A stretch of 40,763 nt of DNA from a virus: IMG/VR virus record IMGVR_UViG_3300038427_000339, positions 1 through 40,763 of that record. One strand, given 5' to 3'. A program made the position numbers and the translations under genes. Numbering within the stretch: position 1 is the stretch's first letter; the number at the start of each line of letters is the position of its first letter. The notes beneath the pieces were generated by a model, which worked only from the letters and a program-made list of their open reading frames with translations, did not search any database and was not told the origin of the DNA. This document shows positions 1 to 28,883 of the stretch, piece by piece.

Positions 1-1592
1 GTGGTCCAACCGGGCCGACAGGTGCCACGGGTGCCACTGGTGCTACGGGGGCGAGTGGCCCTACCGGACCGACGGGTGCTACCGGAGCCACGGGCGCATC
101 AGGGCCAACCGGCCCTACAGGAGCGACCGGAGCTACCGGAGCCACGGGTGCTTCAGGACCAACCGGTCCGACAGGAGCGACAGGTGCAACCGGTGCGACC
201 GGTGCGACGGGAGCTAGTGGTCCAACCGGGCCGACAGGTGCCACGGGAGCTACAGGAGCGACCGGTGCGAGTGGCCCAACGGGGCCCACGGGTGCTACGG
301 GTGCTTCAGGACCAACCGGTCCGACAGGAGCCACGGGTGCCACTGGACGTACTGGTGCCACCGGAGCAACAGGTGCGACCGGAGCAACAGGTGCATCAGG
401 ACCAACCGGACCAACCGGAGCGACCGGAGCTACCGGAGCCACGGGTGCTTCAGGACCAACCGGTCCGACAGGTGCTACCGGAGCTACGGGTGCGACCGGT
501 GCTTCAGGCCCAACGGGGCCCACGGGTGCTACGGGTGCCACGGGGGCAAGTGGACCAACCGGACCAACAGGGTCAATAGGTGCCACGGGTGCGACGGGTT
601 CCACAGGAGCAGTTTCAGTTGGAGCTACAGGACCTACGGGCCCTACTGGTGCCACCGGAGCTACCGGTTCGCCAGGTGCATCTGGAGCTTTATATATAGG
701 TGCTACGGGGGCGACAGGTGCACTAGGACCAACAGGAGCCACGGGTGCCACAGGAGCGACCGGTGCGAGTGGAACTCAATATACTTGGAGAGGCGCATGG
801 TCATCAGGTAGCATAGTATACAATTTGAATGACTGTGTTCAGGATAATGGCAACGGCTACGTCTGTATATTAGGGAATACGTCTTCTGGAGCCAATGAGC
901 CCGGTACTGCCGGAGGAGCCAGTTATTGGAACTTACTGGTGCAAGGCTCAGGGAAGATGTTATCGAGATGGGAATACCCTACAGACGTATTCACCTCCCT
1001 TAACACGATAGCACAGGGCTCACTTTCCATTGAGCAGATGTGGATACCTTTTGCGGTCACAGGCACGGCTATGAAGATTGGCGGCTCGCTATCCATGAAT
1101 ACGAGTACCTCTGCTACCACCGCTTCGGTCAATTACTCCGTAGGCATGGGTATCTATACGCTTAACGGCTCTACACTATCTCTTGCTTCTTCCGGTTCGG
1201 CTAATAATGGATTCCGGTGGTCACAAACCGGGAGCACGACGGCCAACACTTCTATCCAAGGAATGCGGGAAATGACCGTACCTGTGAATATAAACATGAC
1301 TCCGGGTGCATATTGGGTCGCGGTAGTCGTATCTTCCGCCACAACCTACACCGGCGGGGCTTTCACCATATATGGCAATAGTGTAATTGCCAGTGCGTCG
1401 GCAAACGCTGTCCTTTCACCAATCGGCAGTAACATAACGCGGGATGTTTTCCAATTCCAGGGCATCTATACTGCCGCTATCAATGCGAATGCAATACCAG
1501 CGACTATAGTAAGCGGAGGTATTAATATTACGAGTGCCTCGAACGTCCAGAGAGCCAACTTTTACAACGCTATTTATAATGCGACATATTAA
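1..1592 (+). CDS. Collagen-like phage fiber protein, 5' partial
   Basis: The open frame runs from the first complete codon at position 3 to the TAA at 1590-1592, and the start lies outside the window. Up to about 774 it encodes roughly 86 Gly-X-Y triplets, mainly GPT, GAT and GAS, the collagen-like pattern that forms rigid trimeric stalks in phage fibers and spore or capsule surface proteins. The stalk is followed by [10 protein letters not shown] and a Tyr/Trp-rich stretch ending in YWNLL, resembling the small carbohydrate-binding module found in many phage fibers. A C-terminal head of about 200 residues rich in Ser, Thr, Ala and Asn follows. Sugar-modifying genes directly downstream suggest a glycosylated or glycan-binding fiber. 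An ATG at 825 in the same frame is internal and is not the start. Confidence 0.85.
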
Positions 1593-1593
1593 T

Positions 1594-2319
1594 ATGAAAC
1601 CACAGATTATTATGGACAACCAAATAGGATACCACAACACCGACATTGAACAGTCACAGAGCAGGCTGTTTAGGAGTGGTTATTATAAGGACTGCTCTAC
1701 AATATGCCTCATCCCTTCGAGGGGTATGATGCCAGCAAAGGTAACCCAAAGTTGGCTCAATATGTTGCCCCTGATGAACCAGAAATTCATGAGAATCTTT
1801 ATAATCGGTATGGAAATAGGTGAGGCTTACAGCCAGGTGATTGAAACGATATTACAGGACCCAAATCTCTCAAAGTGGTCATTTATACTGACTTTAGAGG
1901 ATGATAACATGCCCCCACCAGATGGGCTGCCCAAGCTGGTGGAATCAATAAATCAGGGCTGGGATGTGGTTGGTGGGCTTTACTGGACGAAAGGTGAAGA
2001 GGGGCAACCAATGATCTATGGTGACCCAAAAAACACACCTGTGGACTTCATCCCACAGGTTCCTGCGTTAGAGGCAGTACAACCCTGTAATGGACTGGGT
2101 ATGGGATTTACACTGTTCAGGCTGAGCGTGTTTAAGGATCAAAGATTACCTAAGCCCTTCTTTAAGACACTGAGTGAATATAGGGAGGGACAAGGTGTTA
2201 GAGCGTACACTCAGGACTTGTACTTCTTTGAGAATATTAAGAAGCTGGGTTACAGAGTCGCCTGTGATACAAGGGTAAAGGTTGGTCATTACGATTACGA
2301 GAGGGATATAGTATGGTAA
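1594..2319 (+). CDS. GT-A type glycosyltransferase
   Basis: Predicted glycosyltransferase of the family 2-like/GT-A fold, 241 residues. The sequence CLIPSRG near residues 38-44 opens the Rossmann-like half, and LEDDNMPPPDG at about residues 101-111 supplies the acidic DxD-type motif that binds the metal and nucleotide sugar. Later GMGFTLFR and the QDLYFFENIKKLG segment fit the acceptor half. The ATG chosen lies two bases after the stop of the fiber gene; in-frame ATGs at 1579 and 1612 are alternatives and none has a clear Shine-Dalgarno. It overlaps the dehydratase gene by seven bases. Its position suggests it decorates the fiber or another virion glycan, but the substrate cannot be read. Confidence 0.75.
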   Translation: MKPQIIMDNQIGYHNTDIEQSQSRLFRSGYYKDCSTICLIPSRGMMPAKVTQSWLNMLPLMNQKFMRIFIIGMEIGEAYSQVIETILQDPNLSKWSFILTLEDDNMPPPDGLPKLVESINQGWDVVGGLYWTKGEEGQPMIYGDPKNTPVDFIPQVPALEAVQPCNGLGMGFTLFRLSVFKDQRLPKPFFKTLSEYREGQGVRAYTQDLYFFENIKKLGYRVACDTRVKVGHYDYERDIVW

Positions 2320-3299
2320 AGAGAATTCTGATTACCGGTGGAGGTGGTTTCATCGGACACCATTTTGTGGAAGGCTTGCTGAAAAGTACTGACTGGGAAA
2401 TCGTCATCGTAGATAGGTTGGACATTTCTGGTAATCTAGAGAGATTGCGTGACATCTCAATCTGGGACCAGGAGAAGAAGAGGGTGAAATTTCTCTGGTG
2501 GGACCTAAAATCACCACTGAACTACTTCATTAAAAGAGAAATTGGGGAGTTAGATTACATCTGGCATCTAGCCGCTTCAAGCCATGTGAACCGGAGTATT
2601 GAGGATCCAATGAGCTTTGTGATGGATAATGTTGTCGGAACATGCAATCTCTTGCTGTATGCCAAAGAAATGAAGACCCTTAAACTGCTGATTTACTTTT
2701 CGACAGATGAGGTTTTCGGTCCGGCTCCAGAGGGCGTAAACTATAAGGAATGGGACCGGTATAAATCGGGCAATCCCTATGCAGCCAGTAAAGCCGGCGC
2801 AGAAGAGTTATGTGTCGCCTTTGAAAACACTTATAAGATGCCGATTATCATAACTCACACGATGAATGTTATAGGTGAGCGCCAACATCCGGAGAAATTC
2901 ATCCCAATGTGCATCAGCAAGATATTGCATGGAGAAACCATTACCATTCATGCAGATATGGCAAGAACAAAGTCTGGCTCAAGGTTCTACATCCATGCCA
3001 GGAACATCTACGACGCACTGTTATTCCTGACTACAAGAGGAGTATCTGGTGAGAAGTACAATATCGTAGGAGAGAAGGAGATTTCAAACCTTGAATTGGC
3101 AAAAACAATTGCAAATATCTTAGGGAAGCCACTATCCTTCGAGATGGTGGATTTCCATTCTTCACGACCGGGTCATGATTTAAGATATTCCCTAGACGGT
3201 TCCAAAATGAGGGAGATGGGATGGCTACCCCCAAAGACATTCGAGGAGTCATTGGCCAAAATTATTCACTGGAGTGTTGCGAATCAAAAATGGTTATGA
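2313..3299 (+). CDS. NAD-dependent sugar-nucleotide epimerase/dehydratase
   Basis: Extended short-chain dehydrogenase of 328 residues. It has the NAD-binding glycine motif GGGGFIG at residues 9-15, the STDEVFG segment at 130-136 and the catalytic Tyr156-x3-Lys160 pair in NPYAASKAGAE. The Thr-Asp-Glu triad in STDEVFG is typical of dTDP-glucose 4,6-dehydratase (RmlB-like) members, so a nucleotide-sugar 4,6-dehydratase is the best guess; an epimerase is the alternative. The ATG at 2313 overlaps the glycosyltransferase end, and the stop overlaps the methyltransferase start as ATGA, so the three sugar genes look translationally coupled. Confidence 0.82.
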   Translation: MVKRILITGGGGFIGHHFVEGLLKSTDWEIVIVDRLDISGNLERLRDISIWDQEKKRVKFLWWDLKSPLNYFIKREIGELDYIWHLAASSHVNRSIEDPMSFVMDNVVGTCNLLLYAKEMKTLKLLIYFSTDEVFGPAPEGVNYKEWDRYKSGNPYAASKAGAEELCVAFENTYKMPIIITHTMNVIGERQHPEKFIPMCISKILHGETITIHADMARTKSGSRFYIHARNIYDALLFLTTRGVSGEKYNIVGEKEISNLELAKTIANILGKPLSFEMVDFHSSRPGHDLRYSLDGSKMREMGWLPPKTFEESLAKIIHWSVANQKWL

Positions 3300-3865
3300 G
3301 AAATTTGGTAAGCACTACATCTAGCATACCTAACAGTAAACAGGTTAAGTATAATCTCGGCTGCGGAAGTAATAGGCAGGAAGGATTCCTTGGAGTTGAC
3401 CAGATTAAAACACCACAGGTTGACATCATGGCTAATCTCGAGGAATATCCCTGGAAGTTCGCCGAGGACGACTCAGCCGACGAAATATACTGCTGCCATT
3501 ACATAGAGCACGTCACAGATCTGATAAAGTTTATGGATGAATGTTACCGAATTTTGAAGGTTGAGAGTAAGATGACAGTTATTGCCCCCTATTATTCTTC
3601 GGTCAGAGCGTGGCAAGATCCAACCCACAAGCGAGCAATATCAGAGAATACCTTTCTCTACTTTAATAAGGGCTGGCGCGCAGTGAATGGTATCGAACAC
3701 TATCCGATAAAATCCAATTTTAATTTTTCATACGGGTATATGTTCAACCCAGAATGGATTGGGAGAAGTGAAGAAGCGAGGGCTTTCGCTGCAAAATATT
3801 ACGTCAACGCCGTTTCTGACATACAGGTGATTTTAACCAAAATAGGAATATTACAGAGCGTCTAA
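3296..3865 (+). CDS. SAM-dependent methyltransferase (class I)
   Basis: Rossmann-fold methyltransferase of 189 residues. Motif I is YNLGCGSN near the N terminus, followed by an acidic residue in FLGVDQ and by the post-I segment ADEIYCCHYIEHV, where the IEHV pattern is typical of small-molecule methyltransferases. The conserved end of the fold is less clear. The start at 3296 gives an ATGA overlap with the dehydratase; an ATG at 3290 is the alternative. Its place behind glycosyltransferase and dehydratase genes suggests it methylates a sugar, but the substrate is not visible. Confidence 0.75.
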   Translation: MRNLVSTTSSIPNSKQVKYNLGCGSNRQEGFLGVDQIKTPQVDIMANLEEYPWKFAEDDSADEIYCCHYIEHVTDLIKFMDECYRILKVESKMTVIAPYYSSVRAWQDPTHKRAISENTFLYFNKGWRAVNGIEHYPIKSNFNFSYGYMFNPEWIGRSEEARAFAAKYYVNAVSDIQVILTKIGILQSV

Positions 3866-5091
3866 TGAGACAGATTCTAATTGGTGGGTACTGGGACAGC
3901 TTGTTTCTACCTACAAGTTCAACAGAACTCGACTCTATCAACGGTGGTTACTCATGGTCGAGTGAATGGGTTGCATCTAAAGTGATGCCCACAAATGGTA
4001 CTCTTAGCCGTTTATCTGTCGAAATATACTATGATGGGTCATCCGGTACCGACCCAATGGGTTACTCATTCACTGTACTGAAAAATAATGTCGCAACAGC
4101 TCTCACTGTTAAAATAACATCGCCAGGTACTCAGGAAATAGATACTGCGGATACTGTATCTGTGGTTGCTGGTGATGAAATTTCACTACAGTGCGCACCG
4201 CAAAATAGCCCTACCACCACGGCAAACGCTCATTGGTCAATAATGTTTGAGGGCAGTACTGCCGGTGAAAGTGTAGTTTTGAGTGGTATTGAAGGTTATA
4301 CATCAACACTATATGCTCCTGTGATGACGGCAAATGGTTATAGCGGTAGCTTGTCTGAAGCGGATGTTTTACAAGTTATGCCAACTGCCGGGACATTCAA
4401 GAAGTTATATGTCTTGTATCCCTATGGTCCAGGCGTAGGAGCGTCTTGGAAATTTACGCTGAGGAAAAACAGTGTTGACACCGCTCTTACTGTTACTATA
4501 TCTGGTGCTACTGCATCTGGTAACGATACCGCGGATACTGTATCTGTGGTTGCTGGTGATATAGTCACCATGAGTTGTGTCGTTACCGGTTCACCTACCG
4601 CTCAGCCTGGCGCAATTAGCATGGTATTTGCACCTACCATTGATGGCGAATCTATAATAATGGGCGATTCTAATGATGCCGCGCATGACAATACTGCGTT
4701 TGAAACCAACTATCTTGGCCCTACAGATTATGACCAAGTCTATACGGTAGCCGGTAACGAATTTGTTGATTACCAAGGTGGCCAATCACCACCGCTAGGC
4801 ATGATACTTAAAAAATTCTATGTTGCGCAGACCAGCGCATCAGGCGCTGGAGCTACCTGGAAATACGATATAAGGTGCACAGGTGATACTAATACGGGAA
4901 TAACAGTCAGTATATCGGGAGCATTAGCAACAACAGGTAACGACACAACTAATACCTATAAATGTGTGGATTACGATAGGTTACATCTTGGAACTACCCC
5001 CACCTCAACGCCAACTGTATCTCAAACTTGTTGGTCAGTAGTCTGTTATATCGCACCAAAAGAACCATTACCAATGTTTTTCCCTACTTGA
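3865..5091 (+). CDS. Beta-rich protein with three internal repeats, probable virion surface protein
   Basis: A 408-residue protein without cysteine-rich or enzymatic motifs. It contains three repeats of about 130 residues, each ending in a pattern like TADTVSVVAGD followed by a beta-strand pair. Two of the repeats share an exact 30-base identity (4147-4176 and 4531-4560), pointing to recent duplication or gene conversion. The ATG overlaps the methyltransferase stop by one base (TAATG). High Ser/Thr/Gly content and location beside the fiber gene suggest a secreted or virion adhesin, for which no specific family was recognised. Confidence 0.7.
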   Translation: MRQILIGGYWDSLFLPTSSTELDSINGGYSWSSEWVASKVMPTNGTLSRLSVEIYYDGSSGTDPMGYSFTVLKNNVATALTVKITSPGTQEIDTADTVSVVAGDEISLQCAPQNSPTTTANAHWSIMFEGSTAGESVVLSGIEGYTSTLYAPVMTANGYSGSLSEADVLQVMPTAGTFKKLYVLYPYGPGVGASWKFTLRKNSVDTALTVTISGATASGNDTADTVSVVAGDIVTMSCVVTGSPTAQPGAISMVFAPTIDGESIIMGDSNDAAHDNTAFETNYLGPTDYDQVYTVAGNEFVDYQGGQSPPLGMILKKFYVAQTSASGAGATWKYDIRCTGDTNTGITVSISGALATTGNDTTNTYKCVDYDRLHLGTTPTSTPTVSQTCWSVVCYIAPKEPLPMFFPT

Positions 5092-12213: not shown

Positions 12214-12579
12214 TTAGGGCAAAAGGGGTAGTTCTCCCTGTCGATGTTCTAATTTTAAGGCTTCCTGTTCGTCCTGCTCGTCTTGTTCTTTGGTAGGACT
12301 CCACCAGCGCCTCATCTGGGTATTACATTTCAGATAATACTTCTGTTTCCAGGACTCGATAAGGTCATAGGGAAAGTTATAGCCGTTCTTGACGAACATA
12401 TCACTTAGCATATTTTGGGATTCTATCGGCATTTGGTCGATACTCGTTATAGGTTTCAAACTAAATTCCAGTTTCGCTCCCCAGTAGCAGGGATAACAGA
12501 CCGGACCGGCTGCCCATCTCTCCCATTCAACCATTCGACCGCAAGAGATACACTTCTGAATTTTCTTTTTAGTGGACAC
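12214..12579 (-). CDS. Hypothetical zinc-ribbon protein
   Basis: 121 residues. CISC and CYPC, 19 residues apart near the N terminus, form a zinc ribbon. The central part is helical, and the C terminus has the Glu/Gln-rich run KEQDEQDEQEALKLEHRQ. It overlaps the upstream gene by 11 bases. Function unknown. Confidence 0.6.
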   Translation of the reverse strand: MSTKKKIQKCISCGRMVEWERWAAGPVCYPCYWGAKLEFSLKPITSIDQMPIESQNMLSDMFVKNGYNFPYDLIESWKQKYYLKCNTQMRRWWSPTKEQDEQDEQEALKLEHRQGELPLLP

Positions 12580-12763
12580 ACGCCGCCTCCTCTGCTTTTT
12601 TTACCAGTGCTTCTGTAAATTCTTCAACATGGTCTGGACAGTGGATAAGGTCTATCTTTTTACCGTTAAAATCACCTTTAGCTCTACCCCAACCTAACTC
12701 TACTTCCTTTTCTCCGACATGAGCTACAGTTGCTTCACAGAAAGAACACTTAAACTTTTTCAT
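12569..12763 (-). CDS. Small zinc-finger protein
   Basis: 64 residues with CSFC at the N terminus and HCPDH about 35 residues later, a plausible CCCH zinc site. AGTGAGAC precedes the ATG. Belongs to the group of small Cys-rich proteins that fill this operon. Confidence 0.6.
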   Translation of the reverse strand: MKKFKCSFCEATVAHVGEKEVELGWGRAKGDFNGKKIDLIHCPDHVEEFTEALVKKAEEAACVH

Positions 12764-12766
12764 GTC

Positions 12767-12886
12767 TCACTCCAATATCATCCCTGACTGTACTTTCTTT
12801 TCCACGGTAACGATGGTGTCGTTGTGCCCGGCGCCATGGCAAACTAAAAGCACTTCTTCCAGGCTATAATGACGGTTTATCCCCAT
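12767..12886 (-). CDS. C-terminal fragment of the frameshifted DNA methyltransferase
   Basis: A 39-residue frame beginning at an internal ATG. Read with the 11 codons upstream in the same frame (from 12919, just after the poly-G run), it gives VVICFGWNSGGMG, then LEEVLLVCHGAGHNDTIVTV. This is the expected continuation of the methyltransferase encoded at 12864-13310 in another frame: the FGWNSxG and HNDTIVTVE patterns follow the DPPY region in phage DNA methyltransferases. No Shine-Dalgarno precedes the ATG, so independent translation is unlikely. Removing one G from the run joins both parts into a 180-residue protein. Confidence 0.65.
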   Translation of the reverse strand: MGINRHYSLEEVLLVCHGAGHNDTIVTVEKKVQSGMILE

Positions 12887-13310
12887 GCCGCCACTGTTCC
12901 AGCCGAAGCATATCACTACCCCCCCCCACTAATAAAATATCATCAATGACATCCTTCTCGGCTTTCCATGACGCGCTTCTCAATGCCTCGCGTCCTCCCA
13001 TTTTCATCCCGATACCGTCGTAGAGTTCTTTTATTTGACGTGGTGAATACGGAGGGTCAAATATCACTAAATCCGGCCTGACGTTTTTGCTCTGCATGAG
13101 TTTCAAAAACTCTAAGCTATCCAGGTGATATTCGGCTTTAGTAGCGGGATTTAAGTCATTGGTATAAGTCGCCCAGCGGCAATTACGCGCGAACGGGTCT
13201 ACACTTATTTTAGAAGCTACTAGATATTTCCGTACAATCTCACCTAAAGGTTTACAGTCAAAGGTATCTCCATTGGTAGCTGCCATCGCCCATACACGGT
13301 TTATTATCAA
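12864..13310 (-). CDS. DNA methyltransferase, frameshifted after the DPPY motif
   Basis: 148 residues as read. DLVIFDPPYSPRQI holds the DPPY motif IV of amino-methyltransferases acting on adenine N6 or cytosine N4. The preceding NDLNPATKAEYHLDSLEFL fits the acidic motif after the SAM site. After DDILLVGGG the frame enters SDMLRLEQWRHGDKPSL and stops, while the family-like continuation lies in the other frame past a run of nine G on the coding strand (12919-12927). The TTG start follows AAGGAG; an ATG at 13286 is the alternative. Likely role: modifying phage DNA against restriction, or an orphan regulator. Confidence 0.7.
   Translation of the reverse strand: MIINRVWAMAATNGDTFDCKPLGEIVRKYLVASKISVDPFARNCRWATYTNDLNPATKAEYHLDSLEFLKLMQSKNVRPDLVIFDPPYSPRQIKELYDGIGMKMGGREALRSASWKAEKDVIDDILLVGGGSDMLRLEQWRHGDKPSL
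12919..12927 (-). repeat. Poly-G tract (9 G on the coding strand) in the methyltransferase gene
   Basis: Nine consecutive G on the minus strand (nine C as printed). Eight or eleven G would keep one continuous 180- or 181-residue methyltransferase frame. Nine split it. Such runs are classic slipped-strand (phase-variable) sites but are also error-prone in sequencing. Confidence 0.9.
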
Positions 13311-27752: not shown

Positions 27753-28883
27753 ATGAGAGAGAAGCTAATATCTATCGGTTATGCCGTCCCGGAGTTATCC
27801 TATACCCAGGACCAGATTTTTGAGCTTATTGGCTATCCCAAAGGATGGCTGCGGTTTTTTCGGGGCAGTGGGATAGATAAGAGGCACTTCTGCATACCGC
27901 TGACTCAGGCCATGAAATTGTCTCTTCAAGAGCAGCAAGACCTTTATATACCTAAAGCAACGGAATTATCCTGCCAAGTGATATTGAAGTGTCTTGACGG
28001 TAGAGACCAAAAGAAAATAAACCGTGTGGTGTACGGTAGCTGTACGGGTTTAGCTCCCGGTCCGACAATAGCCCATTATTTTAGTGCCAAACTTGGTTTC
28101 GCGCCTAATGTATTCGTAGCAAATAATTCTGCTATGGGCTGCGAAGGAGCTTTTCCGGGATTAAAAATAGCTTTAGACCATGTCAAGGCTAACGGCGGTA
28201 TGGCACTGGCGGTCAACTGTGAACTTTCCAGCTTAGTATTTTGGCCGGAAGATGACGTGGCACGACGGCCTGACCCAGAGAATGATTTTGAAGTAGCGCG
28301 CGCCAATGCTGTTTTTGCGGACGGGGCGATGGCGGCACTAGTTGGTTATGACGACGACTGGCGGCACCCGTATATTCTTGATATGGAGACTTATACCGAA
28401 CCTAAATATGCCGACGAATTAGGCTTTATCTGGCGGAACGGACGTTTAAGAGTAAGGCTCTCGAGACGGGTACCAGAATTGGCTCCTTTAGTAGTAAAAC
28501 CGGCGGTCGATGCGGTGTTGTCGAGAATGAATATGAGGGTACCGGATGTCAGATGGTGGGTTATTCATGCGGCCGGGAATATCGTAATTGATAATATCGG
28601 TAGGGCGCTCAATCTACCAGAAGAGAAGTTGTTTCTTTCGCGGGAGACATTGAGACTCTACGGTAACACCTCGAGCACGTCGGTGGGGATTACTGGGAAG
28701 CGTCTGATGAGTGAGAGTATTCAGCCGGGTGATTACATTATGATGCTTTCCGTAGGTCCCGGAATGAGCGGAGGCGCAACTTGCCTTCGTTTTGGCGATA
28801 AACGAGTAGTGGCTATCGTCGGTAATGAATCGGAAATGAAACGAAAAGAAATAAATATAGCATGGTCAGGAGCGATGGTATGA
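27753..28883 (+). CDS. Type III polyketide synthase-like condensing enzyme
   Basis: 376 residues of the thiolase fold. The catalytic triad is Cys130 (SAMGCEGAF), His272 (WWVIHAAGN) and Asn305 (YGNTSST). Spacings of 142 and 33 residues fit chalcone synthase-type enzymes (139 and 33) better than FabH-type ketoacyl-ACP synthase III (132 and 30). IDKRHF near the N terminus, VFADGAMAALVG and the C-terminal GPGMSGGATCLRF also match type III synthases. The HPGG loop is HAAG here. It would extend an acyl or isoprenoid starter with malonyl units; the adjacent ACP suggests ACP-bound substrates. The stop overlaps the next start as ATGA. Confidence 0.75.
   Translation: MREKLISIGYAVPELSYTQDQIFELIGYPKGWLRFFRGSGIDKRHFCIPLTQAMKLSLQEQQDLYIPKATELSCQVILKCLDGRDQKKINRVVYGSCTGLAPGPTIAHYFSAKLGFAPNVFVANNSAMGCEGAFPGLKIALDHVKANGGMALAVNCELSSLVFWPEDDVARRPDPENDFEVARANAVFADGAMAALVGYDDDWRHPYILDMETYTEPKYADELGFIWRNGRLRVRLSRRVPELAPLVVKPAVDAVLSRMNMRVPDVRWWVIHAAGNIVIDNIGRALNLPEEKLFLSRETLRLYGNTSSTSVGITGKRLMSESIQPGDYIMMLSVGPGMSGGATCLRFGDKRVVAIVGNESEMKRKEINIAWSGAMV

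Follow-up and report, generated by a model that had tools for sequence, protein, structure and literature searches.

Bacterial methyltransferases are well known as phase-variable genes, and in the Type III mod methyltransferases the reading frame depends on a repeat (PMC13076061). In Campylobacter, the frame of contingency genes is set by the length of an intragenic poly-G tract, mostly of nine or ten residues; tracts of eight are biased to insertion, so that lengths of nine and ten dominate, and tract rates of 1e-4 to 1.6e-3 per division have been given for this species, which is without mismatch repair (PMC8355987). Phages also encode methyltransferases, PamA being one that has been reviewed (PMC13076061). 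No phage-borne methyltransferase switched by a homopolymer was found in a limited search of the open-access literature at the level of titles and abstracts.

How does a locus of this kind in a virus compare with these systems? The DNA analyzed here, called the window, is the 40,763-base virus record IMGVR_UViG_3300038427_000339 (positions 1 to 40,763), which contains a methyltransferase gene whose frame changes at a run of nine G. As in the Campylobacter genes, the length of an intragenic run of nine G sets the frame, and as in the Type III mod genes, it is the frame of a methyltransferase that depends on a repeat. In contrast to the former, the tract is single in the window and unconserved among relatives; in contrast to the latter, the enzyme is small, apparently an orphan, no restriction partner having come to light in a cursory look, and known from one repeat length. 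We consider it most likely, with a probability of about 0.5 that is a judgement and not a computation, that an incidental slip from eight to nine G switched the enzyme off, in a way that is reversible in principle.

A methyltransferase gene lying in two frames

The 5′ part of the gene is a 148-amino-acid open frame on the minus strand (12864–13310), with a TTG start at 13310 and a stop at 12864. Both the AdoMet motif I (DPFARN) and the catalytic motif IV (DPPYSPRQ) lie in this one frame. The run of nine G on the coding strand, which is C9 on the plus strand, occupies 12919–12927 at the codons for a conserved Gly-Gly-Val, and the last approximately 17 residues of the open frame, past the run, are outside the frame of the family. 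A second minus-strand frame past the run (12767–12925) encodes ICFGWNSGGMGINRHYSLEEVLLVCHGAGHNDTIVTVEKKVQ; this is the conserved C-terminal part, from FGWNSGGMG to HNDTIVTVEKKVQ and including HNDTIVTVE, and comprises the three C-terminal β-strands. It ends at 12767, three bases ahead of the ATG of a 64-amino-acid ORF (12569–12763, minus strand), a tight, operon-like spacing. Since the FGWN/HNDT part is in another frame than the two motifs, the locus is a frameshifted, not an intact, member of its family, phrog_11619.

A search of the window with the phrog_11619 profile gave exactly two pieces, in two frames that meet at the run: profile positions 20–114 at 12993–13304 (E 7.5e-23) and 131–179 at 12779–12925 (E 4.1e-13). 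Proteins of relatives align over the run in the same two-frame fashion, with a junction at 12921/12922 and no residues missing. These results confirm what a preliminary description had read from the letters, namely that the frame with DPPY ends soon after the run and that the second frame fits the missing end of the same enzyme. Its frame arithmetic also agrees with ours: run lengths congruent to eight modulo three read through to give a protein of about 180 residues.

The identification of the enzyme as a DNA methyltransferase, made in the same description, holds as well. PHROGs assigns both the window piece and an intact relative (L002) to phrog_11619, DNA methyltransferase, and the profile matches L002 over 22–178 (E 4.1e-39). 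Searches of Pfam and NCBIfam gave no match above cut-off, and a sequence search of solved structures gave spurious pentatricopeptide rows and weak matches to DpnA only. In the phage collection, relatives 40–46% identical to L002 occur in 20 records, which are phages of Staphylococcus, Streptococcus, Croceibacter, Erwinia and Serratia; several are annotated as adenine-specific DNA methylase. A structure model of L002 (pLDDT 90.7) has the class I AdoMet-methyltransferase fold, and its top structural matches are all methyltransferases, with Z up to 13.8 (5zq0_A, rmsd 2.2, 144 aligned). The profile and the modeled fold thus support a virus-borne DNA methyltransferase of phrog_11619, an assignment that does not extend to N6-adenine versus N4-cytosine specificity. 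The locus shares with the family the motifs WAM..TF, DPFARN, TNDLNP, DPPYSPRQIKE, FGWNS.GMG and HNDTI and a length of about 180 amino acids; it differs in that its frame is broken at the run, whereas the phage records match the query in one piece.

Once a single slip has turned eight G into nine, translation departs from the frame of the family past about residue 131 and stops 17 residues on. Strands 131–136, 148–157 and 165–172 of the L002 model all fall after this position, the run lying just before the first of them. The product of the nine-G gene would therefore retain motifs I and IV, and it is almost certainly inactive, to judge from the model of the intact relative, because the methyltransferase sheet would be without its three final strands.

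Age of the break

When did the frame change? In the 42 codons past the run, the window differs from L002 by 11 synonymous changes and no amino-acid change (dS 0.61, dN 0), values to be compared with dS 0.63 and dN 0.03 for the codons before the run. Random placement of the 11 changes gave a fully synonymous outcome in 0 of 200,000 trials. A segment neutral ever since the split should have gathered about 30 amino-acid changes on the window branch, and any neutral period may be put at most at about 10% of this branch. The 11 synonymous against zero non-synonymous changes indicate that selection acted on the frame until a very recent time, and the comparison shows the shift to be very recent, provided that the base call is right. 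A long-standing pseudogene is ruled out by the absence of amino-acid changes past the run. A conserved downstream frame fits equally a shift that is new, one that is unreal and one that is reversible, so that sequence alone does not discriminate among them.

A dispensable enzyme might instead have just received the first lesion of a permanent decay. Two natural remnants of the family (L010 and L017) break off a short way past DPPYSPRQ and have the C-terminal part in no frame, and another member (L192) is frameshifted elsewhere, from which loss of the enzyme seems to be tolerated in the family. In the window, however, a second lesion is absent and the 42 codons past the run are unchanged in amino acids, so that decay has not visibly begun, and we regard a pseudogene in progress as quite improbable.

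Homopolymer runs can slip during transcription, and the conserved downstream frame would also be compatible with recoding, in which some full-length enzyme would be made from the nine-G gene through RNA-polymerase slippage at the run or through a frame shift of the ribosome. Nevertheless, the intact genes of the relatives require no recoding, the RNA fold past the run is ordinary (z −1.1), and a conserved slip signal is absent. Recoding of this kind is hardly to be expected here.

The tract among relatives

The preliminary description had gone further than the break itself, proposing as a possibility that slippage of the G tract switches the methyltransferase on and off, as at bacterial contingency loci, and yields a mixture of methylated and unmethylated virions. 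In favor of such a switch, the length of nine and the intragenic position match known phase-variable tracts (PMC8355987), methyltransferases are well known among the phase-variable genes of bacteria (PMC13076061), and an off state would leave the downstream frame conserved, as is seen past the run. The locus has the long frame-setting homopolymer inside the gene (12919–12927) that is characteristic of a contingency locus. It lacks another characteristic, a tract that is kept across relatives with differing lengths.

The frame is intact in the relatives L002 and L003, whose identity to the window is 91–92% at the protein level (first 130 residues) and 87% at the DNA level. At the site of the tract they have ATGCCGGAAGGTATTGTT, with no G run; CCGGAAGGTATT stands in close relatives where the window has nine G. 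The longest G run at the site was taken for 132 other distinct family sequences of viral and genome contigs: it is 1–3 in 121, 4–6 in 10 and eight in one (L032). Three matches came from a scan for at least eight G ahead of TTYGGNTGGAAY. Of these, L199 is outside this gene, and two belong to the family: L201, and L200, which is the contig already counted as L032. Each of the two has eight G in frame, encoding Gly-Gly-Val/Ala. Near copies of the locus that would allow tract lengths to be compared were found neither in the phage collection nor in viral contigs, which were searched with a gapped DNA pattern spanning the tract, and accordingly no length variants emerged. A search with a pattern of the conserved end returned only three relatives at 87% (L033–L035); these contigs and L196 overlap, are nearly identical and represent a single virus. 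Searches for relatives of the virus through its ketoacyl-synthase-like protein and through its 1062-amino-acid protein gave none.

Downstream in L002, from about position 928, and in the same region of L033–L035, the next frame, starting VIWNNLELPDSPYYQDKW, resembles a second DNA methylase; at this position the window has short ORFs instead.

Within the window, the tract is the sole nine-base run, the next longest homopolymers being of seven bases, and no second tract of such length is present. A first-order Markov model expects 0.34 nine-base runs of G or C, so that one is not improbable from base composition, although the window is poor in long G/C runs (five of at least six bases, against 17.8 expected). 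The run coincides exactly with the position where the conserved frame changes.

Under an evolved switch, the tract should be conserved or lengths that break the frame should recur, and neither is seen. The comparison therefore leaves the switch unsupported: the closest relatives are intact without a tract, the other members with a long run are two and in frame, and the window has a single tract. Because those eight-G members are rare, in frame and divergent and the close relatives have no run, the tract is best read as a by-product of Gly-Gly-Val/Ala codons that arose separately in divergent members, not as an inherited contingency tract. It has the appearance of a slippage hotspot that is there by accident. 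That a phage methyltransferase has here evolved to be phase-variable is unlikely, and there is little probability that a truly phase-variable orphan enzyme provides each burst with methylated and unmethylated virions as a hedge against the restriction of different hosts. What stood of the proposal is the recent break with its unblemished downstream frame; what did not is phase variation as an evolved mechanism. Should the viral population really vary in tract length, this would be a phage counterpart to the phase variation of bacterial methyltransferases and a way of hedging bets against restriction. On present evidence, it is a clean example of Gly-Gly-Val codons creating a slippage hotspot in a phage enzyme.

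An incidental slip or a consensus error

An outline of the favored process, the incidental slip, is as follows: initially, the conserved Gly-Gly-Val would have been written in the window lineage with G-rich codons, creating a slippage-prone run of eight G. An earlier length of eight is deduced from the frame itself and from the relatives that read in frame, rather than seen in a near copy of the window virus; other family members (L032/L200 and L201) have acquired in-frame runs of eight at the same Gly-Gly-Val/Ala. Then a single slip added the ninth G. Reverse slips are to be expected at some rate, which makes a mixed population of on and off genomes plausible as a passive by-product rather than an evolved switch. 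The behavior of the Campylobacter tracts likewise suggests that a viral population could easily contain both eight- and nine-G genomes with no adaptation involved.

Consensus errors concentrate at homopolymers. The ninth G may hence be an error of sequencing, PCR or assembly, with the enzyme of the virus intact, a possibility that we judge, again without computation, to be appreciable and yet distinctly less likely than the slip. It would predict a downstream frame with no sign of decay, as found; the two further members of the family that have a long G run here carry eight G in frame, which fits an overcall in the window; the methyltransferase alone is split among the genes compared; and the three-base spacing to the next gene suits an intact reading. 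On the other hand, the C9 tract of the virus represented by L034 and L196 has an equal length in two samples, which indicates that nine-base runs can be called consistently, and the other genes compared are free of frame-breaking indels. As each of the other genes shared with relatives keeps one frame, the contig is not generally error-ridden, and a general low quality is ruled out as the source of the split. Only with reads at hand should frameshifts of this kind in metagenome contigs be interpreted as switches.

Cargo of the window and tracts in other contigs

Capsid or terminase proteins were not recognized among the window proteins scanned. Unusual cargo for a phage fragment is present at 1–5091 and 27753–28883: a collagen-like protein, a nucleotide-sugar epimerase, a weak glycosyltransferase match, a small methyltransferase and an enzyme resembling ketoacyl-synthase III/chalcone synthase.

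Long tracts also occur in other contigs. In the related virus of L034 (4446–4481) and L196 (3751–3786), most of the 16-base spacer in a near-consensus promoter (TTGACT-N16-TATAAT) is made up of C9; the promoter precedes a 96-amino-acid ORF, and the length of this tract, nine in both contigs, could tune transcription. Two runs of nine G (310–318 and 430–438) lie in a neighboring ParB-type phage DNA methylase gene of L070, in which the conserved frame changes somewhere between the two runs, the second of them apparently in frame.
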